In this document: positions 23,765 to 35,474 of the stretch, piece after piece
Position numbering within the stretch: position 1 is the stretch's first letter
Layout of the letters: every line of letters starts with the position of its first letter
From: Arthrobacter sp. TMP15
GTDB taxonomy: Bacteria; Actinomycetota; Actinomycetes; Actinomycetales; Micrococcaceae
Length of the DNA stretch: 64,000 bases
Reading direction: 5' to 3'
NCBI RefSeq assembly: GCF_039529835.1
Contig: NZ_CP154262.1
Coordinates: 2,480,001 to 2,544,000 of the forward strand
The notes under the pieces: generated by a model
Told to the model about the DNA's origin: nothing
The model's input: only the letters and a program-made list of their open reading frames with translations
The model's database searches: none
Position numbers and translations under genes: made by a program

Positions 23765-24417
23765 CCGAGTGCCTTGAATGATGTGATCATTTTTTGGATG
23801 TTCTGGAATTCGCTGGTGAGCATGTAAGCCCGAGCATCAGTGATCGTGGCGAAAGCCCGTAAGCCGGGTGAGCCGTTGGGGTCACTGGTGAATTGAAGAA
23901 CGTCGCCAAACATGTAGATGCCCAGCTTCTCTGACGAGACGGTGTTGTAAACCAGGCAGGCCTTGCCATCGGGACCGGCCGCTTGATCCGTGATTCCGTA
24001 GGAGGCAAAGTGATGAGTTTCGCCTTGGATGATGCGGTAGGTGAACCGAGGCTCCACGGCAAGCATAGATTCGTTGTCTGACGGGATCGCCAAGGGAACA
24101 CTGGCTAGCACCGTGTTCGGTCTACTGGAGTCCGGCTGGCAGGCCCCACCCAAACTCGATATGTGAGTGTTCAGCACAGCCATGACATCTGAGGAAGCAG
24201 CCCTCACCTCAAGGCGAACCGCTCTGGCGCTAGGTGGGGCTGGTACCGTCCGAGCTTGAGTTCGAGGGCGTCGTGAAAGTTTGGGGACTAGCGCTCGCAT
24301 GCACTTGAGCTGGTTGGCTTGCCGAATCCGATGATTCCGTAGCTCCCGTGGTTGTTCCGCAGCCGCTCGAGGCCCGAGCCTTGATGCGCCCATGCTACCG
24401 GCAACTTGGGTTATCAC
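23761..24417 (-). pseudogene. frameshifted secreted lipoprotein gene
   Basis: The C-terminal about 140 residues (from LEVRAASSDVM, covering 23761 to about 24220) read as a normal extracytoplasmic domain. Upstream the same frame turns into an Arg/Pro-rich, unlikely N-terminus. In a neighbouring frame, about 24232-24380, the translation is SSGCGTTTGATESSDSASQP followed by a Ser/Thr/Pro linker, exactly what follows a lipobox. A frameshift near 24225-24245 therefore separates linker from domain, and the signal peptide itself is also missing in that frame. The gene is probably inactive, or the sequence has indel errors. Confidence 0.65.
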
Positions 24418-25934
24418 CTCAGATTTTGGATCAGTTCACGGTAAAAAACTACGCCCGCACCCAGCGATCCGATTCGCACCCGTTCATTGACAGCATGCAA
24501 ACTGGCCCTGTCAGAGGCATCCATTAAGAGTGGAGAGAAACGGTAGACGGCCGGGGAGATTGTGCACAAGTGCCGTGAGTCCGTGGCGCCGGTTTGGATA
24601 TATGGCGTCACAACGGCTGCGGGATACGACGCGGCCACTGCACGCGTCAGCAGCGCAAATTGATCGCTCTCAAAGGAAGAAATCGGCGATGGATCATGCC
24701 CTGAGAGGACTCTTAGTTCCACGGACGGATCGTCAATGATTGTTCGAACTTGCTCAACCACCGAGTCAACAGACTCCCCCACGGCAATGCGAATATTGGC
24801 ATTGGCACGAGCCGTGGAAGCCAGCACGTTTGAGGCTTTACTGCCCTCCAGCATGGTGACGGCCACTGTGGTGCGGGTCAGGGCACGCGTTTCATCGCCC
24901 ACCCAAGAAAATACTTGCGTCAAGGGTGTCTTAAAAATCCACATGTTCTCTGTTATGAGCCGCAAAGCAAAGCTGCTGTGCAACCCGATCCGGCGCATCA
25001 TTTCCACAATGGGTGCTGGCATGGATGCCGAAAACTGTGTCTCCTCGAGCGCAACAATGGCTTGGGCAAGACGTGCAGTTGCCCCCATACGCGGAGGAGT
25101 GGAAGCGTGCCCACCGGCCCCTCGGGTCAGCAGTTCCAAGTCTAAACTTCCCTTTTCAGCCACACCGATAACAGCCGCCGGCGCTTTCAGACCAGGGAAG
25201 GCGTCCAGGGCAACAGCCCCTCCTTCATCAAGGACCAGCCACGGTTTCACACCACGGCGGGCGAGTAGATCCGCCGCAGCGCGCGCGCTGTCACCGGTAC
25301 TCTCCTCATTGTTACCGAAGGATAGGTAGAGATCGTAGGCTGGCGCAAAACCATCATCGATCAATGTCTCAATGGCTCCCATGATGACAACCAGGGCACC
25401 CTTGTCATCCAATGCCCCGCGGCCCCAAACCCACCCGTTCTCCTGATGGCCGGAGAACCCCGGGTGCTTCCAATCATCTCGAGTGTCAACGGGGACCACA
25501 TCATAATGAGCCATCAGCACAGTGGGTTTGGCATCGGCATCGGATTTGGACCCGGCCCATTTGAAAAGAAGCGCGTGCCCATTGACAAACTCCCGGGACA
25601 GTACCGTATGCACACCCGGGTACAAGCGCTCCAACGCTTCTATGAATCCCGTAAATTGATCGAGCTCAATGAGGTCCCGAGCACTGGCAAACACGGTGCG
25701 GAAGCCGATCAGCTCACTAAGCTGATCAGCCGCCGGTTGAGCGTATTGCACCCCAGTCTCCGGCGCTTGATCGTATGCGGGTGGAGCAGCTCCAGCACTG
25801 TGGGCACGCGCACCAATGACGGCGGCCGCACCGCCAACACTGACCACCAAGGCTGCTGCTACTGCTCGGGCTGTTCGCGCTGCACTGCCTGTTCTAGCTG
25901 CATGGCTAAGAGGCCTGGCTGATCCTTTACGCAT
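24414..25934 (-). CDS. M20-family metallopeptidase (PM20D1/carboxypeptidase-like)
   Basis: About 506 residues with a basic N-terminus and one membrane segment (about 15-37), so the enzyme is probably anchored or exported. The M20 zinc site is visible: MAHYDVVPVD near 135, GRGALDDKG near 160, NNEESTGDS near 195 and a late His (DSRHLCTISP) near 465. The layout matches the PM20D1-like branch that splits or joins N-acyl amino acids, but peptidase activity is equally possible. The ATG at 25934 is the first start that gives a sensible signal anchor. Its 3' end overlaps the broken lipoprotein gene. Confidence 0.88.
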   Translation of the reverse strand: MRKGSARPLSHAARTGSAARTARAVAAALVVSVGGAAAVIGARAHSAGAAPPAYDQAPETGVQYAQPAADQLSELIGFRTVFASARDLIELDQFTGFIEALERLYPGVHTVLSREFVNGHALLFKWAGSKSDADAKPTVLMAHYDVVPVDTRDDWKHPGFSGHQENGWVWGRGALDDKGALVVIMGAIETLIDDGFAPAYDLYLSFGNNEESTGDSARAAADLLARRGVKPWLVLDEGGAVALDAFPGLKAPAAVIGVAEKGSLDLELLTRGAGGHASTPPRMGATARLAQAIVALEETQFSASMPAPIVEMMRRIGLHSSFALRLITENMWIFKTPLTQVFSWVGDETRALTRTTVAVTMLEGSKASNVLASTARANANIRIAVGESVDSVVEQVRTIIDDPSVELRVLSGHDPSPISSFESDQFALLTRAVAASYPAAVVTPYIQTGATDSRHLCTISPAVYRFSPLLMDASDRASLHAVNERVRIGSLGAGVVFYRELIQNLR

Positions 25935-26084
25935 AAGACGGATTCTATGCCACGGCCCTGATGATTGGCTTGGTATCAGGACTAAAAAGAAGCACAAGTA
26001 AACACAAGATGAACAGTTGTTTCATGGGCACAGTTTTTGTGGACAGAGTGTTTATCGGCACGTACGCTCTTTTTTGTGAGCACA

Positions 26085-26840
26085 ATGACGTTGGCCCAAC
26101 GGGCCGCAGAGCAACCCCTTCCGCTTCTGATATTGGACTTTGATGGCACTCTTTGTCTGGGTGACGGCCCAGTATTGGCCTATGCAGCCGCTGTTACGGA
26201 TCAGATCCCGGAAAGCGCTAGAAAAAGTCTCCATGAAGCACTGGCCCAATTTCTGGCGCAAGATTCCAACGCTCCCGCCTACAAGGACGGGTATGCGGCG
26301 GTGGCGGCACTTTCCGAGGGTCTGTTGGATGAAGCAGCACTGAGTCAGGCCTATACAGAGAGTCGACGCCAGCTCGCCGCGGGAGAAGTGACCATCAGCG
26401 CCCCGGATGGGTTAGCCGCCTTTCTGGATCAGTTGGAAGGCGTCGCTTTCCGAATAGTGCTGACAAATGCCCCCTTAACAGGCGTGGCGGAGTCTCTCAC
26501 CACTCTGGGTCTGGCCCCATCCATAGACCTGATCATTGCTGATGCAAATAAACCCGGTGGATTCACCGAGTTGCTCCCGGACTTCTTGCAGGACAGGGCA
26601 CCCTACGAACTACTCAGTGTGGGCGACGTTTGGAGTAACGACATTGAGGTGCCGGCCCGAGCGGGCTGCGCTACCGCTTTCATTGACCGGTTCAACCACC
26701 AAAGCGGCGCCGCAACTCTGCGCGCCGCCCGGTTTGAGCTGCTGTATGCCGCAATCACCGACTGGGCGCACAACCCAGCGGTCTTTATTTCCAACCAACC
26801 CAGCATCTCCACTCCTTCCTCAGAAAAGGCACCACTGTGA
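26085..26840 (+). CDS. HAD-superfamily phosphatase-like hydrolase
   Basis: The 251-residue protein has HAD motif I as ILDFDGTLCL near residue 16, motif II VLTNAP near 127, a motif III lysine in NKPGGFTELL and motif IV GDVWSNDI near 185. A helical cap lies between motifs I and II (subclass I). It likely removes phosphate from a small phosphomonoester in the cytoplasm. It is the first gene of an operon with a PhnD/C/E/E importer, a phosphoesterase and an RpiR regulator; its stop overlaps the phnD-like start. An imperfect repeat ATGAA...TTCAT at 26009-26025 lies upstream but is too weak to call an operator. Confidence 0.88.
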   Translation: MTLAQRAAEQPLPLLILDFDGTLCLGDGPVLAYAAAVTDQIPESARKSLHEALAQFLAQDSNAPAYKDGYAAVAALSEGLLDEAALSQAYTESRRQLAAGEVTISAPDGLAAFLDQLEGVAFRIVLTNAPLTGVAESLTTLGLAPSIDLIIADANKPGGFTELLPDFLQDRAPYELLSVGDVWSNDIEVPARAGCATAFIDRFNHQSGAATLRAARFELLYAAITDWAHNPAVFISNQPSISTPSSEKAPL

Positions 26841-27862
26841 AAAACAACCGTTCTAAAAACGCAGCATGGGCAGCTTTGGCTCTTGCCGGAACCCTTGCAA
26901 TGTCCTCCTGTGGCGTCAGCCAAGACCAGGCTAGCTCCGCGTCTGGTGCCGCAACGTCAACCTCTGCCTGTACCGGCACCAATGAGAGCTCCGGCCCAGC
27001 TCCTTCAAAGCTAACGCTCGCACTTGTCCCTTCCGGAGACGCCAAGAAACTCGTTGACACAGTCAAACCGTTAGAAGAAGCGCTCTCTTCCCGACTAGGG
27101 ATCCCGGTCACTGGCGTCATCACGGCAGACTACCAAGCAGCAGTCGAAGCCATCGGCGCCAACCAGGCCCAGATAGGTATGCTCCCATCCCTGCAGATGA
27201 GCCAGGCTTGCGATAAATACGGCGCCATCCCCGCGTTGCAGACAGTGCGGAAGGAAAAGTCCAGTTACGCCGCCCAGATGTTCACCAACAACCCCGATAA
27301 GTACTGCACCGACAAGCCCGCAGAGGGACCCAACGGGATGCTTTATTGCAATGGCACAGCATCAGGGAACGGCCCCGCGGGCCTCGACGCCGTGAAGAAG
27401 ATCAAGGGTTCAACAGTGGCCATGCTTTCGTCAGCATCGCCCGCAGGATACATTTTCCCCGTCGCTGCAATGAAAACCGCGGACATCGCCCTTGAAGACA
27501 TCTCTGCCATCAAAGTCACCGCCAATGATGCCTCGGTTCTCGCCGTCTATAAGGGTGACGCCGAGGTTGGTTTCAGCTACTGGGATGCCCGCGAGGTAGT
27601 GGCCTCAGACACTCCGGATATTGGCAGTAAAGTGGTCGTTTTTGCCTTGACGGATGAGGTCCCCAACGACGGCATGTCCATCTCCAGCAAGCTCAGCTCA
27701 GAGTGGCAGCAGAAGATCAGTGACGCCATGCTGGATTTCGCGGGCACCACAGAAGGCGTCAAAGCGTTGAAGGCTATTTACCAAATCACGGGTATGGCTG
27801 TGGCAGACCCGAAGAGCTTGTCCATTACCCAGGAAGCCGCGAAATCCATTGGACTCGGCTAG
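26837..27862 (+). CDS. phnD: PhnD-type phosphonate/organophosphate-binding lipoprotein
   Basis: The 341-residue protein starts with a basic segment, a hydrophobic stretch and the lipobox MSSC, a Ser/Ala linker, and then the phosphonate-binding fold: LTLALVPSGDAKKL at the first strand, PLEEALSSRLGIPVTG, IGMLPSLQMSQACDKYG and VGFSYWDAREVV. It captures a phosphorus compound outside the cell for the PhnC/PhnE transporter that follows. The GTG start at 26837 overlaps the HAD gene stop. The name reflects family membership; a phosphonate substrate is not shown. Confidence 0.9.
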   Translation: MKNNRSKNAAWAALALAGTLAMSSCGVSQDQASSASGAATSTSACTGTNESSGPAPSKLTLALVPSGDAKKLVDTVKPLEEALSSRLGIPVTGVITADYQAAVEAIGANQAQIGMLPSLQMSQACDKYGAIPALQTVRKEKSSYAAQMFTNNPDKYCTDKPAEGPNGMLYCNGTASGNGPAGLDAVKKIKGSTVAMLSSASPAGYIFPVAAMKTADIALEDISAIKVTANDASVLAVYKGDAEVGFSYWDAREVVASDTPDIGSKVVVFALTDEVPNDGMSISSKLSSEWQQKISDAMLDFAGTTEGVKALKAIYQITGMAVADPKSLSITQEAAKSIGLG

Positions 27863-27948
27863 ATCCATTGGACCCGCTTAGCCACAATATCGCCGGCACG
27901 TTCTGATCGATTCCAGCACCCTTACAAAGACACAAGAAAGCAGAGCTC

Positions 27949-28758
27949 ATGGAGCACACGGGGGCGGATATCCGCTTTAGCGATGTCTGCGTTAGATATC
28001 CCAATGGTTACACCGGTTTGAAGAACATTGACCTGTTCATTCCTTCCGGTGACATGGTGGGTATCGTTGGCCTGTCAGGGGCTGGCAAGTCAACATTGGT
28101 GCGCACCATCAACGGGCTTGTTCCCATCACCAGTGGCCACATCACTGTAGGCGATCACCAGCTCAATGGTTCCGGAGAACCCCGGCTCCGTGGCAAGGAC
28201 TTGCGTGAATTGCGCTCCAATGTGGGCATGGTCTTCCAGAGCTTTAATCTGGCCAAGCGCACTACTGTCATCAACAATGTTCTGATGGGCAGGCTGTACC
28301 ACTCTCCCGCCTGGCGGACGCTTCTGGGTGCTTGGAAGAACGACGACGTGGAGCTCGCCATGGCTGCTTTGGAGCGGGTCGAAATAGTGCCTAAGGCCTA
28401 CGAAAAAGCCTCAAGTCTCTCCGGCGGACAACAGCAGCGGGTAGCCATTGCCCGCACTCTCGCCCAGAGGCCAAAGGTGATACTTGCTGATGAACCGGTG
28501 GCTTCCCTTGATCCGCCAACGTCCCACGTGGTGATGCGTGATCTGCAGCGCATCAACGCCGAGCTTGGCATCACGGTGGTGGTGAATTTGCACTTCCTGG
28601 ATTTAGCAAGGCGGTACAGCAACAGGCTAATCGGGCTGCGTTCCGGGGAAGTTGTCTTTGACGGTGCCGGAGCCGACGCCGACGAGTCTGTCTTTGAAAA
28701 CATCTACGGCCGCTCGCTAACGGCCGAAGATGTTTTGCCCAACAAAGGCCAGTTATGA
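27949..28758 (+). CDS. phnC: PhnC-type ABC transporter ATP-binding protein
   Basis: The 269-residue ATPase has Walker A GLSGAGKST near residue 43, the Q-loop in MVFQSFNLAKRTTV, signature LSGGQQQRVAIART near 160 and Walker B VILADEPVASLDP near 180, all in the PhnC form. It powers uptake through the two PhnE permeases. The gene follows phnD by 86 bases and overlaps the first phnE by four. Confidence 0.93.
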   Translation: MEHTGADIRFSDVCVRYPNGYTGLKNIDLFIPSGDMVGIVGLSGAGKSTLVRTINGLVPITSGHITVGDHQLNGSGEPRLRGKDLRELRSNVGMVFQSFNLAKRTTVINNVLMGRLYHSPAWRTLLGAWKNDDVELAMAALERVEIVPKAYEKASSLSGGQQQRVAIARTLAQRPKVILADEPVASLDPPTSHVVMRDLQRINAELGITVVVNLHFLDLARRYSNRLIGLRSGEVVFDGAGADADESVFENIYGRSLTAEDVLPNKGQL

Positions 28759-29561
28759 GCTCAGCCACTACCGTGAAGACCGAACCCGGCCGCCCTACCA
28801 AGCCGCGCCATGGCGCAAAGTCAGCTGCCGCCGTCGTTCTTCTGCTGGCTATCACTCTCTGGGCTGGATTTGGGGTCCAGGTTGATGTGGCGGCAATAGT
28901 ACAGAACTGGCGCAACGCCACCAGCAACGTCATTGCGCTGCTGCAGCCGGATTATGGGTTCTTCCCCAAAACCATTCCTGCCCTGGTGGAAACCCTGCAG
29001 ATGGCCGTCATTGCTACGGTAGTGGGTTCGGCCATCTCGCTGCCGCTGGCTTTTTTGGCCTCCAGGGCAACCAACCCTAAGCCGTGGCTGCTCGCTGGCG
29101 TACGTTTTGTCATGAACATGATCCGCAGCGTGCCAGAAATTCTTTTCGCGGCAATTCTGGTGGCAGTTGTCGGTGTGGGTGCACTCTCAGGCATCATGGC
29201 GCTGGTGCTGTTCAATATTGGCATCATTGTGAAGCTGGTCTCGGAGACCCTGGATGGCGAGGACACAGGCGCTCAAGAGGCCGCTTTGGCTGCCGGTGCC
29301 AGCTGGCCCAAAGCCAAACGGGCGGCCATGCTTCCCCAGATCCTGCCCAGTTTCATCTCACAGCTTTTATACACTTTCGAGCTAAATATTCGTGCCTCGG
29401 CTGTCATTGGGCTGGTGGGAGCCGGGGGTCTGGGTATTTTGATTGACAACGTCCGCAGCTTCTTTAGGTACCACGAGCTGTCCCTGATCATTATGGAGAT
29501 CCTCATACTGGTTTTAGTGCTGGAGTCGATCTCTTCATGGCTTCGAAAGAAGTTGGTATAA
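28755..29561 (+). CDS. phnE: PhnE-type ABC permease 1
   Basis: The 268-residue protein has about six membrane segments and the inner-membrane coupling loop of the binding-protein-dependent type, EDTGAQEAALAAGASWPKA, near residue 175. The C-terminal VGAGGLGILIDNVRSFFRY is typical of PhnE. It forms the membrane channel with the second PhnE. The ATG overlaps the phnC stop. Confidence 0.9.
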   Translation: MSSATTVKTEPGRPTKPRHGAKSAAAVVLLLAITLWAGFGVQVDVAAIVQNWRNATSNVIALLQPDYGFFPKTIPALVETLQMAVIATVVGSAISLPLAFLASRATNPKPWLLAGVRFVMNMIRSVPEILFAAILVAVVGVGALSGIMALVLFNIGIIVKLVSETLDGEDTGAQEAALAAGASWPKAKRAAMLPQILPSFISQLLYTFELNIRASAVIGLVGAGGLGILIDNVRSFFRYHELSLIIMEILILVLVLESISSWLRKKLV

Positions 29562-29562
29562 C

Positions 29563-30399
29563 GTGGCCACCGTTATTGACGAGAAACAGGGCACCTCACG
29601 CCCCGTGAAACCAACCACAAAGCTGCGCACCACTTTATGGCTGGTAGTGTCCCTGATTGTTGTTGCAGCTTTCTGGTCGGTGAAGATCCAGTGGTCCGCA
29701 CTGGCCGACTTCCCCGCCCAACTCTTCAAATACATCTCTGCGATGTTGTTGCCGCCCGATTGGAGTAAGTTCTCCGAAGCATTTGGCGCCACGATCTTAT
29801 CCGTGCAAATGGCCTGGATTGGCACAGTCTTGGGCATCGTCATCTCGTTGCCACTGAGTTTTTTGGCATCCAAATCCCTCGCACCCCAGGTTGTCACAGC
29901 ACCCCTTCGACTACTCTTCGCCGTGATCCGTGCCGTGCCCGAGGTGGTTATTGCCATTTTGATCCTCTCCGTCACCGGCCTGACACCTTTTACGGGTGCC
30001 TTGGCCCTGGCTGTGGGCTCGATCGGCACCTTGGGAAAGTGGGGTTATGAAGCTTTTGAGTCTGTTGACGCCGGCCCTAAGGAAGCCGTTCGTTCTACCG
30101 GCGGTGGCACACTGGCTTTGATCCGTTGGGGCGTTTGGCCCTCGGCCGCTCCTGAGGTGTTCTCATTTTGGTTATACCGTTTTGAAATTAATGTGCGGGC
30201 ATCAGCCATTTTAGGACTCATCGGCGCTGGCGGTATTGGCAAGATGCTTCAGGACAACGTGCAATTCCGCAATTGGGATGCCGTGGGTATGTTGCTCATT
30301 GTGGTGGTGGTGCTCACCATGTGCATCGATCAGATCTCCGGCGCTGTGCGCAACAAGCTCATCCACGGTACGTGGCGGGCACCTAAGCTGGCTTCATGA
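29563..30399 (+). CDS. phnE: PhnE-type ABC permease 2
   Basis: The 278-residue protein shows the same layout as the preceding gene, with coupling loop SVDAGPKEAVRSTGGG near residue 165 and GLIGAGGIGKMLQDNVQFRN near the end. Starting from GTG 29563 it lies one base after the first permease. Paired PhnE proteins form a heterodimer in several bacteria, instead of the single PhnE of E. coli. Confidence 0.9.
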   Translation: MATVIDEKQGTSRPVKPTTKLRTTLWLVVSLIVVAAFWSVKIQWSALADFPAQLFKYISAMLLPPDWSKFSEAFGATILSVQMAWIGTVLGIVISLPLSFLASKSLAPQVVTAPLRLLFAVIRAVPEVVIAILILSVTGLTPFTGALALAVGSIGTLGKWGYEAFESVDAGPKEAVRSTGGGTLALIRWGVWPSAAPEVFSFWLYRFEINVRASAILGLIGAGGIGKMLQDNVQFRNWDAVGMLLIVVVVLTMCIDQISGAVRNKLIHGTWRAPKLAS

Positions 30400-31454
30400 C
30401 AACGCTGCGCATCCTTCACCTCAGCGACACCCATCTGACCGGTGATGGCACTCTCCACGGCGGCGTCGTGGATACGGTGGCTGCCTACCGCTGGACTCTT
30501 GGCGCCTTTAAAAATGCCGGTCCGCTGGACTTGGTGGTCATATCCGGGGACGCGTCCGACGACGGGTCCCCGGCTTCCTACAACACCTTGCGTTCGCTGA
30601 CCCAAGACTTTGCCCAACGCCACGGGGCTGTGGCTGTTTATGCCATGGGCAACCACGATCAACGCGGCGGGTTCCGTGAAGTTCTTGGATCCGGGCACCC
30701 TAACTCCACGCAGAACTATCCTGCCGTGGCCAGTGAAGCGAGCACAGAGTGTGAAGCCAGCACTGAGGGCGGAGTCAGCCCGGCTGGTGAAGCTAGCCCA
30801 ATTTTTGGCGTCAGCATGGTTTCAGGGTTCCGCATCATTACCCTGGACAGCTCCGTTCCGGGCCGTACTCACGGATATCTGGATATTACCCAACTGCAAT
30901 GGCTACGTTCTGTGTTGGCCACTGATTCCGGGTACGGGACGGTGGTGATAGTCCATCACCCACCAGTAGAGCCTGTCACCCCCCTGCACCGCGGCATCGA
31001 GCTCATAAACGCTGATGAGTTGGCGCATGCGCTGGAGGGCTCCGACACCGTGGCCATCTTGAGCGGTCATTACCACCATCACCTCAATGACGTTCTTCAG
31101 ACGGGGACTAATGACATTGCCGTGGTAGTGAGCTCTGGTGTAGTTAATTCCAATGATGTGCTGGCCACCCCAGGCCACGAGCGGGCAGGTGCAGGAGGCG
31201 GTGGAACTCTTCTTAGCATCAGTGCAGGGTCCCCCGGCACATCCACCAGCCGTATCACGGGCGCCCGGGTCAGGTCGCTGCCCCTTCGTTTTCAGCTTCC
31301 CGCAGAAGTGAGTCCACCTCTTGTCCATGAACTAAGTCCGGCGCAGGTTTCAAATATCAGCGCCTCCATCGCTGCATCCCCGGCAGAGCTAGCGGCAGCT
31401 AAGCTGCCAGTTACCAGAGCGCGAAGAATGCCTCAAGGAAAGAAGGAAATGTGA
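30396..31454 (+). CDS. cytoplasmic metallophosphoesterase (CpdA-like, class III phosphodiesterase)
   Basis: The 352-residue protein carries the complete calcineurin-like site: LSDTHL near residue 10, VISGDASDDG near 50, AMGNHDQRGG near 85, VIVHHPPVEP near 188 and LSGHYHHHL near 225. No signal peptide is present, so it acts in the cytoplasm on an imported compound. Members cleave cyclic nucleotides, glycerophosphodiesters or related phosphodiesters; the substrate cannot be read off. An acidic Glu/Ser-rich insert (about 110-132) is unusual. Overlaps with the upstream permease and the downstream regulator show that it belongs to the same operon. Confidence 0.9.
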   Translation: MTTLRILHLSDTHLTGDGTLHGGVVDTVAAYRWTLGAFKNAGPLDLVVISGDASDDGSPASYNTLRSLTQDFAQRHGAVAVYAMGNHDQRGGFREVLGSGHPNSTQNYPAVASEASTECEASTEGGVSPAGEASPIFGVSMVSGFRIITLDSSVPGRTHGYLDITQLQWLRSVLATDSGYGTVVIVHHPPVEPVTPLHRGIELINADELAHALEGSDTVAILSGHYHHHLNDVLQTGTNDIAVVVSSGVVNSNDVLATPGHERAGAGGGGTLLSISAGSPGTSTSRITGARVRSLPLRFQLPAEVSPPLVHELSPAQVSNISASIAASPAELAAAKLPVTRARRMPQGKKEM

Positions 31455-32320
31455 AAGATCACCCGATGACGGAGTACGCTCCCGGTCAGATTCTGGCTCA
31501 CATCCGGTCCTCCCGGCCAGCCTTGTTGCCAGCCGAGCAAGCCGTTGCGGCAGTTTTCTTGAGCCACACCCAGAAAATCATCGAACTCTCATCTCAGCAG
31601 GTAGCAGAGTTGGCCGGGGCCTCCCGTACCACCGTAGTGCGGGCCTGTCAAAGCTTGGGCTACTCCGGATATCAGCAGTTGCGCGTCCTTCTGGCACGCG
31701 ACGCCGGGTACGCCAGTCCCGAGCCACGCGCCAAAGCGATAGGGGCGCCCGGCATGGTGGCCGACGCTTTTGTGCAGGTGGGCAACGCCGTGACATCCAT
31801 GGCTGCTCTCTTGGACCCGGATGCGGTAACGGGTGCTGTGCAGGCCATGGCAGGCGCTGGACGCATGCTTGTTGTCGGCAATGGTCTCTCCGCACCACTA
31901 GCGGCGGACATGGCCGCGAGGCTGAGCGCCATCGGCCGGCCAGCAGAGTCTTCTCTGGACGTCATTGGTCAACAGATCGCTGCACGGCTCCTGACCCCGG
32001 AAGACGTCTTACTCATCATTAGCGGTAGTGGCGCCAATAGTTCCACCTTGCGTGTAGCCAAAGCTGCCCTTGACGCCCATGCCACACTGGTGGTCATCAC
32101 AGCCTTTGCGCGCTCACCCCTGTCAGCAATGGCTGACTTCTCACTGGTCGTGGGGATGGGAGATCTCAGCTTCCGCGAAGAGGTAACGGTCACCAGCAGA
32201 ATTCCCCAGACTATCCTCATGGAGGGTCTGATAGCAGCACTCACGGAAGAATTGGGTGAGAAGGCTGCGGCGGCCAAGGCCCTGGCGTTGGAGATTATCA
32301 GTGAGAACTTGGATGAATAA
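31451..32320 (+). CDS. MurR/RpiR-family transcriptional regulator with SIS domain
   Basis: The 289-residue protein has an N-terminal HTH_6 domain (LSSQQVAELAGASRTTVVRA near residues 38-57) and a C-terminal SIS domain starting near 125 (GRMLVVGNGLSAPLAADMAAR, LIISGSGANSSTL). SIS domains bind phosphorylated sugars or similar phosphomonoesters. As the last gene of the operon it probably senses the monoester made from the imported compound and controls the locus. It starts four bases before the phosphoesterase stop. Confidence 0.9.
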   Translation: MKDHPMTEYAPGQILAHIRSSRPALLPAEQAVAAVFLSHTQKIIELSSQQVAELAGASRTTVVRACQSLGYSGYQQLRVLLARDAGYASPEPRAKAIGAPGMVADAFVQVGNAVTSMAALLDPDAVTGAVQAMAGAGRMLVVGNGLSAPLAADMAARLSAIGRPAESSLDVIGQQIAARLLTPEDVLLIISGSGANSSTLRVAKAALDAHATLVVITAFARSPLSAMADFSLVVGMGDLSFREEVTVTSRIPQTILMEGLIAALTEELGEKAAAAKALALEIISENLDE

Positions 32321-32381
32321 TCCCCACCCCCTCAGAGGTAGGTTTTCCTGACTGGTCCTGCCCCGTATCGTCATTGGACGC

Positions 32382-32651
32382 TTGCCTCTACACTTTTTGT
32401 CAGCTCATGGGAAAACCAAAACAGGGCAGCCCGCCCAGGCGGGGGCCTTGGGGCAACGGTGGGCGAAGACCAGTTCAATGGTGGGCCCAGGAGATGCAAT
32501 CGTGCTGAGCCCCGACGTCGGTCATATTGATCCGGAAGCCGAGCCTTCCATCGTCATAGTTCACTCTGCGCGCAACCTCACGCTGGAGAATGCCAGCGAG
32601 GTTGTTCTAGGCTTCATGATCGGCAATGACGTCTTGGCTCGTGAGGCGTAA
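32382..32651 (+). pseudogene. fumarylacetoacetate hydrolase family remnant
   Basis: The translated stretch from about 32480 contains GPGDAIVLSPDVGHIDPEAE and ARNLTLENASEVVLGFMIGNDVLARE, which match the central part of FAH-family hydrolases, including the VLGxxxGND region. The N-terminal half is replaced by unrelated sequence and the frame stops directly after LAREA, so the C-terminal catalytic half is missing. About 60 of some 280 expected residues remain, so the gene cannot be active. Confidence 0.75.
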
Positions 32652-32817
32652 AAAGCTAACGGATTGTGGATTAGTTCCAAAAGGGTATTGACGGTGCCAA
32701 AAGTCAGCACGGTTATCTAAAGGCTGTTGCCTCACTGGGGCGTGAGCCTCATTGTATGATTCCGCGCCACGGCGCTCATTGGGTTTTTTGAATTTCAGCT
32801 GGCAGGATTGGTTACCT

Positions 32818-33357
32818 ATGGCAACAGCAACACCCTCACAACCAGTCACCGCAGATGCCAGCGCAACGGGCCGCGGCTACTTTGCCTTGCCCGCAGCATG
32901 GGTGTCTCGCAACCCAAAACTGGCCTCTCAATTGCGCGGTTTCGCGGTGGTGGCCATCATTTGCACCGCTATTTCCATGACGATTTTTGCTGGTTTACGC
33001 CCCCTATATGGCATGCAGTGGGCCAATGCTATCTCTTTGGTGCTTTGTTCGGTGCTGAACACTGAGCTGAACCGCAGAATTAGTTTTGGCATCCGCGACC
33101 GCCACCTGTGGTGGCGTGACCAGCGACGCGGGCTATGGGTCATGCTCCTGGCTTTGAGCATGACCGGTGGAAGCTTGTGGGTACTGCACCATGCCGCACC
33201 CGAGGCCTCAATAGTGACCGAACTTGCTGTTATTGTGCTTGGTAATGTTGCCTCAGCCATCACCCGATTCGTCCTGCTGCGGTACTGGATCTTCCGCAGA
33301 GTCAGGCACGCGGGCGCCGCGCACCCCAAAGATGCACCTGTTCCCGCTCATTCCTAG
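32818..33357 (+). CDS. GtrA-like membrane protein
   Basis: The 179-residue protein has about four membrane segments (near residues 42-60, 68-82, 103-122 and 132-155) and the GtrA pattern of an Asn/Arg-rich loop (LNTELNRRISFG) after the second segment and RFVLLRYWIFRR near the end. GtrA proteins help move lipid-linked sugars across the membrane or anchor glycosyltransferases. ATG 32818 is chosen because it follows a short AGGA and fits the usual length. No glycosyltransferase gene is nearby. Confidence 0.85.
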   Translation: MATATPSQPVTADASATGRGYFALPAAWVSRNPKLASQLRGFAVVAIICTAISMTIFAGLRPLYGMQWANAISLVLCSVLNTELNRRISFGIRDRHLWWRDQRRGLWVMLLALSMTGGSLWVLHHAAPEASIVTELAVIVLGNVASAITRFVLLRYWIFRRVRHAGAAHPKDAPVPAHS

Positions 33358-33369
33358 CGGCACTGGTCT

Positions 33370-34530
33370 TTAGCGGCCAAGCCGCAGCATCCTTCCCACA
33401 GCTTCAACCAACTCCTGGCCGGCAGTGGAGAGCTGGTCTTGGGTCACGTCCACAGCAAAACTAAACCGTAGTGCAGTTTGCGCCACGGCTCGCTCTACCC
33501 CCATGGCGCAAAGGACAGGAGAGGGCTCATCGGATCCGGCCGCACAGGCTGATCCTGACGAGCAAATAATGTTGCGGCGTTCAAGTTCCAGAAGCACTGA
33601 TTCACCGCTGATGCCCGGGAAACAAAACGAGGCCACATTGGGCAACCGTCGCATCCTGTGCCCAGTCAGGACAGCCGCAGGAAGGCTTGCTAAAACAAAG
33701 TCAATAAACCCGTCCCGCAACCCGCTGACACGGCTCAGTGCAGCGCCTCTGCCTGCTTCCGATAGTTCCAACGCCGTAGCCAGGGCTACGGCAAAAGCCA
33801 CATTTTCCGTACCGGAACGTGCCCCGTGTTCCTGGCCTCCCCCGTGGATCAACGGTTCATAACGTGTTCCTGCGCGTACATAGAGCAGTCCTACTCCCTT
33901 GGGCGCTCCCATCTTGTGACCGGAAATGCTCAGTGCGCTGACACCTAGCTCTTGCACATTCAGTGATAGCCACCCGGCCCCCTGCACGGCGTCGGTGTGC
34001 AGTGGCACCCCGCTGGCCGCAGCGATACGAGCCAGCACGTCAATGTCCTGGACGGTGCCCACCTCATTGTTGGCGTACATGATGGAGGCCACTGCAACGT
34101 TGCTTGTGCTCTCCAGCATCTGCTCAAACACGTCAGGATCAACCAAGCCGTTGCTATCCACCGGAACCACATCCACCGTGAAGTCATGAACCCGATGTAA
34201 ATAGTTCGCGGATTCCACCACAGCGGGATGCTCCATGGCACTGATCAAGATGCGGTTAAGCGAGGGATCAGCGCTCCTGCGCGCCAGTGCAATGCCTTTC
34301 AACGCAAGATTATCTGCTTCGGTGCCGCCGGAGGTAAACACGAGCTCCTCGGCACGGGCGCCCAACACAACGGCACACCGTTGCCGGGCGTCAGCCAGGG
34401 CAGCCGCTGCCTGCTCACCAAGTCCATGATGGCTGGAGGGGTTGCCAAACTGGTTGGTGAGCAAAGGAAACATGGCCTCGATCACTTCCCGTCTGACAGG
34501 AGTGGTTGCGGCCGCATCGAGAAAAATCAC
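33370..34530 (-). CDS. cysteine desulfurase of the NAD operon (NifS/IscS-like)
   Basis: The 386-residue PLP enzyme shows MIFLDAAATTPV at the start, FTSGGTEADNLALKG, the PLP lysine in ISGHKMGAPKG near residue 200 and the active-site cysteine in IICSSGSACAAGSDEPS near 325. It removes sulfur from cysteine for Fe-S cluster building. As the last gene behind nadC with a four-base overlap, it most likely supplies the 4Fe-4S cluster of quinolinate synthase NadA, as nadS-type genes do in other operons. Confidence 0.92.
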   Translation of the reverse strand: MIFLDAAATTPVRREVIEAMFPLLTNQFGNPSSHHGLGEQAAAALADARQRCAVVLGARAEELVFTSGGTEADNLALKGIALARRSADPSLNRILISAMEHPAVVESANYLHRVHDFTVDVVPVDSNGLVDPDVFEQMLESTSNVAVASIMYANNEVGTVQDIDVLARIAAASGVPLHTDAVQGAGWLSLNVQELGVSALSISGHKMGAPKGVGLLYVRAGTRYEPLIHGGGQEHGARSGTENVAFAVALATALELSEAGRGAALSRVSGLRDGFIDFVLASLPAAVLTGHRMRRLPNVASFCFPGISGESVLLELERRNIICSSGSACAAGSDEPSPVLCAMGVERAVAQTALRFSFAVDVTQDQLSTAGQELVEAVGRMLRLGR

Positions 34531-35474
34531 AACGAATGGCTCACTTCCATGTCCAACCCCAGATCAAGCGCCCGCAAAGTGTGAGTTAGTGCCCCCACCG
34601 AGATAATATCCACACCTGTTTGTGCAATCCCCGCAATGGTGGATAAATTCACGTTGCCGCTGGCTTCAACCAGTGCACGCCCATTGACTAATGCAACGCC
34701 TTCTACCAACTCCGCGTTCGTGAAGTTGTCCAGCATGATGGTGTCAATTCCGGCAGCCAGAACGGCTTTCACCTGCTCCAGGCTGTCTACTTCCACCTCA
34801 AAATGGACCGTATGGGGCAACCGGCTCCGCACGCCTGCGAGCGCAGCGCTTAACTTGGTCCGGTCTCCCCCGGTGAGTACGGCCAAGTGGTTGTCTTTGG
34901 CCAGCACGGCGTCAGAAAGCGAGAACCGGTGGTTGTGCCCGCCCCCGCAACGCACCGCGTACCGTTCCAGAATGCGCAGTCCCGGAGTAGTTTTACGAGT
35001 GTCGGTGACACGAGCGTTTGTGCCTACCAACAGCGCCGCATACTCGGCGGTTTGGGTAGCGATGGCGCTCATACGCTGTGTGAGGTTCAAAGCGATTCTC
35101 TCAGCCGTCAGCACCCCGCGGGCCAATCCGCTGACTGACATGATTCGATCCCCGGCCCCAAAGGTGCTGCCATCAGCAATGAGTTGCACCACGTGCGCTT
35201 CCGGATCCTGCATCTTCATGGCAGCGGTGAATACGGCCCCACCGGAGAAGATGCCCGGCTCTCTCGCCACCAACCAGGCACTTGCCCTGGCGGTGGCGGG
35301 CAGCAAGGTTGCCGAGGTGATGTCCCCGTACGGGGCGTCCTCGGCGAAGGCCCTGTGTAGGATCTCCTGCACAGCGCTCGCTGGTAATTCCGGTAGTGCT
35401 GGTAATTCCGGCAGTGCAGGCAGAGCCGGCTGGGGTGGGGCAGTTTTCTGCAGGACAGGTTCGACGGCGTTCAT
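34527..35474 (-). CDS. nadC: nicotinate-nucleotide pyrophosphorylase (quinolinate phosphoribosyltransferase)
   Basis: The 315-residue protein has APYGDITSATLL, the substrate-binding TRKTTPGLRILERYAVRCGGGHNHR near residues 165-190 and IMLDNFTNAELVE near 245, all diagnostic of NadC. It converts quinolinate and PRPP to nicotinate mononucleotide, CO2 and pyrophosphate. The N-terminal 30 residues contain a Leu-Pro-rich repeat (PALPALPELPALPELP) not usual for the family. It overlaps nadB and the desulfurase gene by four bases each. Confidence 0.95.
   Translation of the reverse strand: MNAVEPVLQKTAPPQPALPALPELPALPELPASAVQEILHRAFAEDAPYGDITSATLLPATARASAWLVAREPGIFSGGAVFTAAMKMQDPEAHVVQLIADGSTFGAGDRIMSVSGLARGVLTAERIALNLTQRMSAIATQTAEYAALLVGTNARVTDTRKTTPGLRILERYAVRCGGGHNHRFSLSDAVLAKDNHLAVLTGGDRTKLSAALAGVRSRLPHTVHFEVEVDSLEQVKAVLAAGIDTIMLDNFTNAELVEGVALVNGRALVEASGNVNLSTIAGIAQTGVDIISVGALTHTLRALDLGLDMEVSHSL

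Follow-up and report, generated by a model that had tools for sequence, protein, structure and literature searches.

An Arthrobacter operon with a PhnCDE-type transporter and two predicted cytoplasmic hydrolases as a candidate system for scavenging organic phosphate esters

In the PhnT family of ABC transporters, a His and one Ser of the binding protein are described as having arisen to hold a third oxygen when the number of P-O sites in the ligand head group rose from two to three (PMC12718374), and the ligands of the family member PhnD1 need at least three oxygens (PMC10284923). In Streptomyces and related actinobacteria, sugar phosphates and nucleotides are reported to be dephosphorylated outside the cell and the phosphate to be imported (review, PMC7866108). 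Here we describe an operon of Arthrobacter sp. TMP15 in which a transporter of this family is encoded together with two hydrolases. It lies in a window of 64,000 nucleotides (positions 2,480,001-2,544,000 of contig 1, NZ_CP154262.1, of the 3.72-Mb genome), within which operon positions are numbered. From 26076 or 26085 to 32320 on the plus strand, genes for a HAD hydrolase, PhnD, PhnC, PhnE, a second PhnE, a metallophosphoesterase (MPE), and an RpiR-type regulator follow one another (Table 1).

We consider it probable that the operon serves to import an organic phosphate ester and to cut it inside the cell, and we see about even chances that the substrate in the clade of the window is a diester, cyclic nucleotides included. 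In the proposed mechanism, PhnD would catch the ester and PhnC-PhnE-PhnE would import it whole, the MPE would cut the imported diester to a monoester in the cytoplasm, the HAD protein would remove the phosphate from the monoester, and RpiR would leave a twin operator once its SIS domain had bound the monoester. The operon would thus be induced by its substrate and scavenge an ester of organic phosphate, which in the clade of the window is most probably a phosphodiester; the most likely candidates are a glycerophospho- or sugar-phosphodiester, followed by 2',3'-cyclic nucleotides. A scheme of this kind had been proposed in a first-pass annotation of the DNA. Of this scheme, the link between uptake and hydrolysis in the cytoplasm, controlled by RpiR, is supported, but the MPE proved not to belong to the core.

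The transporter falls within the PhnCDE group (PhnT, TC 3.A.1.9) by the curated cut-offs for ATPase and permeases and by the superfamily of its binding protein. PhnC scored 310.5 bits with TIGR02315 (cut-off, 266.1), and PhnE 1 and 2 scored 249.8 and 263.6 bits with TIGR01097 (cut-off, 216.7). PhnD, whose N-terminus looks like that of a lipoprotein by eye, matched PF12974 with 150.7 bits (cut-off, 27) and TIGR01098 with 128.8 (cut-off, 112). If these scores are taken at face value, the substrate could be a phosphonate and the C-P bond could be cleaved by an enzyme encoded elsewhere or by one of the hydrolases, since PhnC and both PhnE proteins exceed the curated cut-offs for phosphonate transporters. 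D250 and D278 of PhnD also match the acid pair with which Escherichia coli PhnD (EcPhnD) holds the amine of 2-aminoethylphosphonate (PMC12718374). The phosphonate-specific equivalog TIGR03431, however, gave only 68.6 bits for the window PhnD, far under its cut-off of 261.1, and PhnJ had no match in the genome, in a search whose control hit E. coli alone among 14 genomes; PhnX, PhnW, and PhnA lay outside the genome-wide search. The phosphonatase PhnX carries a Schiff-base Lys in its cap, whereas the HAD cap has no invariant Lys across 18 sequences. The earlier statement that C-P lyase is missing held, the HAD protein is not phosphonatase-like in its cap, and we regard phosphonate uptake as highly improbable. 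Five further PF12974 matches elsewhere in the genome were weak, with at most 30.3 bits per stretch against 151.2 for the window PhnD; three of them exceeded the cut-off, two of these only together with neighbouring stretches.

The binding pocket of PhnD was compared in an alignment of 66 relatives; L098, with a split PhnD match, was left out of it and of the tree, and L043, with a broken PhnD, was in neither. Residues S201-P202-A203, N230, D250, and D278 of the window PhnD align with S127-T128-S129, H157, E177, and D205 of EcPhnD, and S201-P202-A203 and N230 align with S168-N169-S170 and H199 of the glycerol-phosphate-binding protein GpxB. The register against EcPhnD was confirmed by counting residues in the alignment: 3s4u is, by its title, the H157A mutant, its Ala faces N230, and the Ser, Glu, and Asp positions fit the same offset. 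In the window, S-P-A and N230 have replaced the S-x-S and His of PhnD proper. Both residues that hold the third oxygen in solved relatives, the second Ser and the His, are lost, which suggests a ligand whose head group offers only two free oxygens, such as a phosphodiester; such a group would fit, although Asn could still bind. The same residues bear on the idea that PhnDCEE is a second importer of inorganic phosphate (Pi), as reported for the Mycobacterium smegmatis PhnDCE. PhnDCE systems that act as Pi transporters are described (PMC7866108, PMC10284923), and Asp278, which faces the Asp203 that contacts Pi in PhnD1, is retained and is no argument against this idea. But the STS, His, and capping Tyr with which PhnD1 holds Pi (PMC10284923) correspond to SPA, Asn, and Gly in the window, the Tyr that follows the contact Asp falling on G279 to judge from its position, and Pi import would leave two cytoplasmic hydrolases and RpiR without a role. 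We therefore consider a Pi importer very unlikely.

Two pocket types were found among the 66 relatives: an N type with S-P-A and Asn (35 loci) and an H type with His (31 loci, 28 of them with S-x-S). In a midpoint-rooted PhnD tree they formed two clades, with local support of 0.955 and 0.999 and a single exception. This was the PhnD of Williamsia (L066), which sat on a long branch inside the clade with MPE and had S-S-A and His; its operon contained no MPE, and a related MPE was present elsewhere in the genome (6.2e-60). An AlphaFold2 model of the window PhnD, used for family matching only, had PtxB as its best structural match, with ArrX and GpxB lower in the list.

In the case of the MPE, the nearest solved relative was Rv0805 (E 6.3e-36), followed by a GpdQ-type phosphohydrolase (1.7e-7). 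The metal-site residues D11, H13, D52, N86, H87, H187, H188, H225, and H227 and the GNHD motif were invariant in 15 sequences, and the metal-site signature of class III phosphodiesterases (D-x-H, GD, GNH, H, GHxH) was present; the MPE is predicted to be a cytoplasmic enzyme of this type. The HAD protein scored 23.7 bits with PF00702, just below the cut-off of 26.4. Its AlphaFold2 model (mean pLDDT, 91.2) matched N-acetylneuraminic acid phosphatase first and dehalogenases and phosphoglycolate phosphatases lower down, and D18, D20, T127, K156, D181, and D186 (numbered from 26085) were invariant in 18 sequences; on model and motifs, phosphatase activity is likely. Rows omitted from the conserved-residue alignments were L050 from A3, L050 and L054 from A5 (the MPE alignment), and L050, L056, and L062 from A6. 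A hypervariable insert of the MPE lies at about residues 100-135; in L046 (= L054) it has grown into VNTAQ-type repeats on either side of a run of N.

The first-pass annotation had proposed a search for the same gene set and order in actinobacterial genomes. A single scan with the PhnD alignment as query found 17 loci in named genomes, some from very close relatives, in Arthrobacter, Psychromicrobium, a Renibacterium metagenome-assembled genome, Leifsonia, Microbacterium, Luteimicrobium, Nakamurella, Williamsia, and others. The order HAD-PhnD-PhnC-PhnE-PhnE-RpiR was present in all 17, with RpiR clipped by the contig end in L056, and an MPE stood between PhnE and RpiR in 16, which excludes a chance array. 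In the window and in 11 of these 16 loci, as called, the MPE gene overlaps the preceding PhnE gene by 4 bases. PhnD matches at E<=1e-30 were present in 23 of 197 genomes of the family. In ten of these PhnD was close (E<1e-190), and they are the ten genomes whose MPE adjoins other operon genes; of the 13 with a weaker PhnD, only the locus of G012 was read. The MPE of a genome of the same species (G157) was 97% identical to that of the window, and its operon agrees with that of Arthrobacter sp. H35-MC1 (L050), in which PhnD and HAD showed 100% and 98% identity.

Wider samples of 297 order, 394 class, and 396 phylum genomes contained PhnD relatives in 41, 12, and 17 genomes, respectively. From these, 50 loci were chosen (of the matching genomes other than that of the window, 27 of 40 in the order, 10 of 11 in the class, and all 16 in the phylum) and scanned with hidden Markov models (HMMs) built in this analysis. 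The six genes without an MPE were found in 22 of the 50 loci, 16 with N and 6 with H pockets, and an MPE in L137 only. An apparent HAD-PhnD fusion in L086 was rejected, as the long open reading frame (ORF) is the PhnD frame and HAD lies in another. We then tallied genes on the PhnD strand within 6.5 kb at more than 40 bits. N-pocket loci had RpiR in 35/35, HAD in 33/35, and MPE in 17/35 cases, and H-pocket loci had RpiR in 7/31, HAD in 9/31, the nucleotidase NT5C in 12/31, and MPE in 0/31. To judge from these comparisons, the core system is HAD-PhnDCEE-RpiR and the MPE is an addition in the clade of the window; the earlier view of the MPE as an integral part of the set had to be given up, 18 of the 35 loci with the same pocket having none adjoining.

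This distribution could also mean that a phosphomonoester such as a nucleotide or a glycerol phosphate is imported, that HAD alone frees the phosphate, and that the MPE has a separate role. The 16 N-pocket loci with HAD-PhnDCEE-RpiR but no MPE would fit such a substrate, as would the NT5C genes near PhnD in H-pocket loci, the binding of glycerol 1-phosphate and glycerol 3-phosphate by the PhnT protein GpxB (PMC12718374), and XAC2383, which according to its structure title was solved with ATP. It is harder to reconcile with the absence from the window pocket of both residues credited with the third oxygen, with the retention of the MPE in 16 of 17 named loci, and with the 4-base overlap of its gene with PhnE. 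We judge monoester import to be unlikely.

Genes related to the RpiR gene also occur beside other transporters. With the RpiR alignment as query, 42 of the 297 order genomes had a match at E<=1e-45, and eight matches outside PhnDCEE operons were read (L190-L197). L190, L191, and L192 combine RpiR with a tyrosine-phosphatase-like protein (Y_phosphatase3 in Pfam), an MPE (84-182 bits), and ABC transport genes, of which an ATPase gene was the only one recognised in L190; the L192 MPE is 36% identical to that of the window. RpiR, MPE, and transport genes are likewise found in L196, with a phosphatase-like ORF seen by eye, and in L197, where none was recognised. In L193 and L195, RpiR is accompanied by the same HAD family (36% identity to the window HAD in L193), a metallo-β-lactamase (MBL)-fold protein, whose Pfam score in L195 is under the cut-off, and transport genes of the CUT1 type. 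The short L194 contains RpiR, HAD, and a possible binding protein. Among curated models, those for Ugp or GlcT came nearest to the scanned transport proteins of L192 and L193, always with scores far short of the cut-offs, the L197 permease was nearest UgpA, and the L195 binding protein was nearest a carbohydrate one; these transporters would be of the sugar or glycerol-phosphate type, with no finer assignment. A phosphatase, a second hydrolase, and RpiR are thus combined with two transporter families, and L190-L197 may represent a sister system sharing its substrate with the PhnDCEE operon. The import of a phosphodiester, as first annotated, gains from the changed PhnD head pocket and from these related RpiR genes with MPE plus phosphatase, or with HAD plus MBL-fold protein beside CUT1 genes; it loses in that the conserved core does without the MPE.

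One form of the diester reading would have a 2',3'-cyclic nucleotide from RNA decay as the substrate, its ring being opened by the MPE and the nucleotide dephosphorylated by HAD. Rv0805, the nearest solved relative of the MPE, is reported to be 150-fold better on 2',3'- than on 3',5'-cyclic nucleoside monophosphates (PMC4222275). Distant, H-pocket PhnDCEE loci encode, besides NT5C, a dGTPase-like HD protein (13/31; Pfam names, assigned on samples). In Bifidobacterium longum subsp. infantis, ACJ51153-51159 are consecutive accessions listed as a 5'-nucleotidase/apyrase, two PhnE, PhnC, PhnD, RpiR, and HAD (table of PMC8477406). But none of the seven genes relates to nucleosides or nucleobases, related RpiR genes are paired with CUT1 (sugar-type) transport genes, and the dGTPase neighbours may reflect housekeeping synteny, so that we find this sub-case quite unlikely. 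In L142, L147, and L167, PhnDCEE adjoins a dnaG-like ORF, read from ORF starts, and a dGTPase-like match lies about 4-6 kb from PhnD. In the range L084-L099, a dGTPase-like gene was near PhnE in 10 of 15 tallied loci. Because of the nearby dnaG-like ORF in some loci, the dGTPase link was not used as strong evidence on the substrate.

The regulator scored 63.1 bits with PF01418 (cut-off, 28.3) and 46.2 with PF01380 (cut-off, 25). The effectors of MurR/RpiR regulators are phosphorylated metabolites. Twin palindromes of the consensus TGRAC-N5-GTYCA, 30-31 bp apart from start to start, were found 5' of HAD in all 18 close upstream regions (the 17 named loci and L037), the consensus being derived from the same data; at least one site occurred in 192 of 3600 single-nucleotide shuffles. 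In the window alone the pattern was not above chance (7 matches, 5.85 expected), and the predicted operator therefore rests on conservation. Of the other loci with RpiR, 14 of 25 had at least one operator-like site at the same threshold. As sites are missing in some RpiR loci and occur in some without RpiR, binding of RpiR to the twin boxes is plausible only. A wider RpiR regulon was rejected: a whole-genome scan with a single-box pattern, which neither window box matches, gave 19 matches against 12 for the reversed control, and no second box at 30-31 bp was found at 11 single-box places checked.

Several observations weigh against an imported diester and the scheme built on it. The number of oxygens held by the pocket is what we infer from two residues, the model of PhnD is only moderately good (pLDDT, 77.6), and His and a missing MPE coincide in Williamsia alone, which sits on a long branch. 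Eighteen of the 35 N-pocket operons have no MPE alongside; among the 19 genomes with MPE-less operons (these 18 and Williamsia), a related MPE was found elsewhere in 6 (E<=1.1e-59) and none at E<=1e-10 in 13. In such loci the N pocket is therefore no sure sign of a diester. Three of the 197 family genomes (L038, L039, L044) had a close MPE (E<1e-75) but no PhnCDE with it, and in L039 and L044 this MPE occupies the site of the operon. Operator-like sites were missing in 11 of the 25 other RpiR loci, and single sites were present in 4 of 10 loci without RpiR. Finally, sequence does not reveal the specificity of a class III phosphodiesterase (PMC4222275), and even for Rv0805 the substrate in the cell is a matter of debate (PMC13001264).

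With these points in mind, we propose only tentatively that a PhnT lineage was rebuilt for intact diesters by the exchanges of S-x-S for S-P-A and His for Asn, that it became tied to RpiR, and that a phosphodiesterase joined on one branch; in Williamsia, whose operon lacks the diesterase, the pocket would have reverted. If this is true, the operon encodes a PhnT-family importer of intact diesters, of a kind not met in the literature searched; among titles and abstract starts, with some result lists partial, none described this gene set. Import of an intact diester would be a route to organic phosphorus and carbon different from extracellular dephosphorylation. It might help to account for the retention of 'phosphonate' transporters by actinobacteria that have no C-P lyase, and it would reveal which pocket residues distinguish binders of monoesters from binders of diesters within a large family of transporters. 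With two pocket classes and a twin operator at hand, the proposal lends itself to direct tests on a few purified proteins.

The seven ORFs of the first-pass annotation were confirmed with the families it had named, PF12974, PF00005, PF00528 (twice), PF00149, and PF01418 with PF01380 exceeding the Pfam cut-offs. The reading of these genes as one operon is supported. Start/stop overlaps had been claimed for nearly all junctions; four of the six do overlap, by 4 bases, but one has a 1-base gap and phnD and phnC are 86 bases apart. Among the named relatives the overlaps differ from locus to locus. The HAD frame is open further upstream of ATG 26085, and an in-frame GTG lies nine bases earlier at 26076; with GTG as the HAD start in 15 of 17 named relatives, as picked by a script taking the start nearest the expected place, it is the likelier start. 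TACGCT at 26063-26068 ends seven bases 5' of this GTG, so the operon mRNA may be leaderless. No sigma-70-type promoter was found by consensus in 25900-32800, and in 24000-34600 no Rfam family scored above its gathering threshold. The phnD-phnC gap of the window folds worse than its shuffles (z 1.48), and an RNA element there was rejected as evidence; of four gaps folded, those of L053, L059, and L060 contain strong hairpins.

Table 1. Features of the operon region, numbered within the window
Feature	Position	Strand	Basis or remark
Upstream palindrome box 1, TGAAC-N5-TTTCA, predicted operator	26010..26024		conservation with box 2
Upstream palindrome box 2, TGGAC-N5-GTTTA, predicted operator	26040..26054		conservation with box 1
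Predicted phosphomonoesterase of the HAD family with a helical cap inserted between motifs I and II	26076..26840	+	ATG alternative at 26085
PhnD-type substrate-binding protein	26837..27862	+	PF12974, TIGR01098
PhnC-type ATPase	27949..28758	+	TIGR02315
PhnE-type permease 1	28755..29561	+	TIGR01097
PhnE-type permease 2	29563..30399	+	TIGR01097
Predicted cytoplasmic MPE, class III phosphodiesterase-like, nearest solved relative Rv0805	30396..31454	+	PF00149
MurR/RpiR-type regulator, HTH_6 and SIS	31451..32320	+	PF01418 and PF01380

Some related loci differ in content. In L043 (G143), PhnD contains two in-frame stops and PhnE1 is split across frames, while the MPE, RpiR, and DUF1684 genes are open; this operon seems to be decaying, the transporter first. 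A DUF1684 protein (PF07920 in L043) follows RpiR in L040, L043, L046 (= L054), L057, and L140, with homologues assigned by tblastn or HMM, and its gene may be an eighth operon gene in several loci; relatives with solved structures are 2lnu and 2lok. The window has no such gene between RpiR and a GtrA-type gene. In L039 and L044, the MPE lies between a peptidase-like and a NifS-like gene and is followed by an ORF resembling, by eye, the DUF1684 protein of L043. L053 ('Sporosarcina beigongshangi') and L056 ('Acidobacteria bacterium') contain an Arthrobacter-type operon with 79% and 76% PhnD identity, respectively, and these records are likely mislabelled or contaminated.

Compared with described systems, the operon resembles M. 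smegmatis PhnFDCE (PMC7866108) as an actinobacterial PhnDCE system without an adjoining C-P lyase, but that system has a GntR-type regulator, PhnF, and Pi as substrate, whereas here RpiR and two hydrolases are present. With Rv0805 and the class III cyclic nucleotide phosphodiesterases the MPE shares the family, the metal-site motifs, and the GNHD His; it differs in the variable insert and the C-terminal part, and it scored 70.1 bits with the CpdA model (cut-off, 225). The glycerol-phosphate transporter GpxABCD of the PhnT family (PMC12718374) likewise has a PhnD-family binder for an organic phosphate ester without an aromatic cap. GpxB, however, uses S168-N169-S170 and H199, with R223 and T247 for the tail, a set not matched by the window PhnD, which has S-P-A, Asn230, and Asp278 at aligned sites; R252 lies near the R223 site in an uncertain register. 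The main text of the GpxABCD paper contains none of the terms hydrolase, phosphatase, and operon. A parallel in logic is the agrocinopine acc operon of Agrobacterium (PMC4526662), which comprises a binding protein with an ABC importer, the phosphodiesterase AccF, the putative phosphatase AccG, and the repressor AccR, which senses the monoester product. AccR is of the DeoR type, and the likeness is one of logic alone, drawn from descriptions. As far as can be judged from its genes, the Arthrobacter operon would work like the agrocinopine system, importing its substrate whole, cutting the diester, sensing the monoester, and removing the phosphate, by analogy and not by membership.

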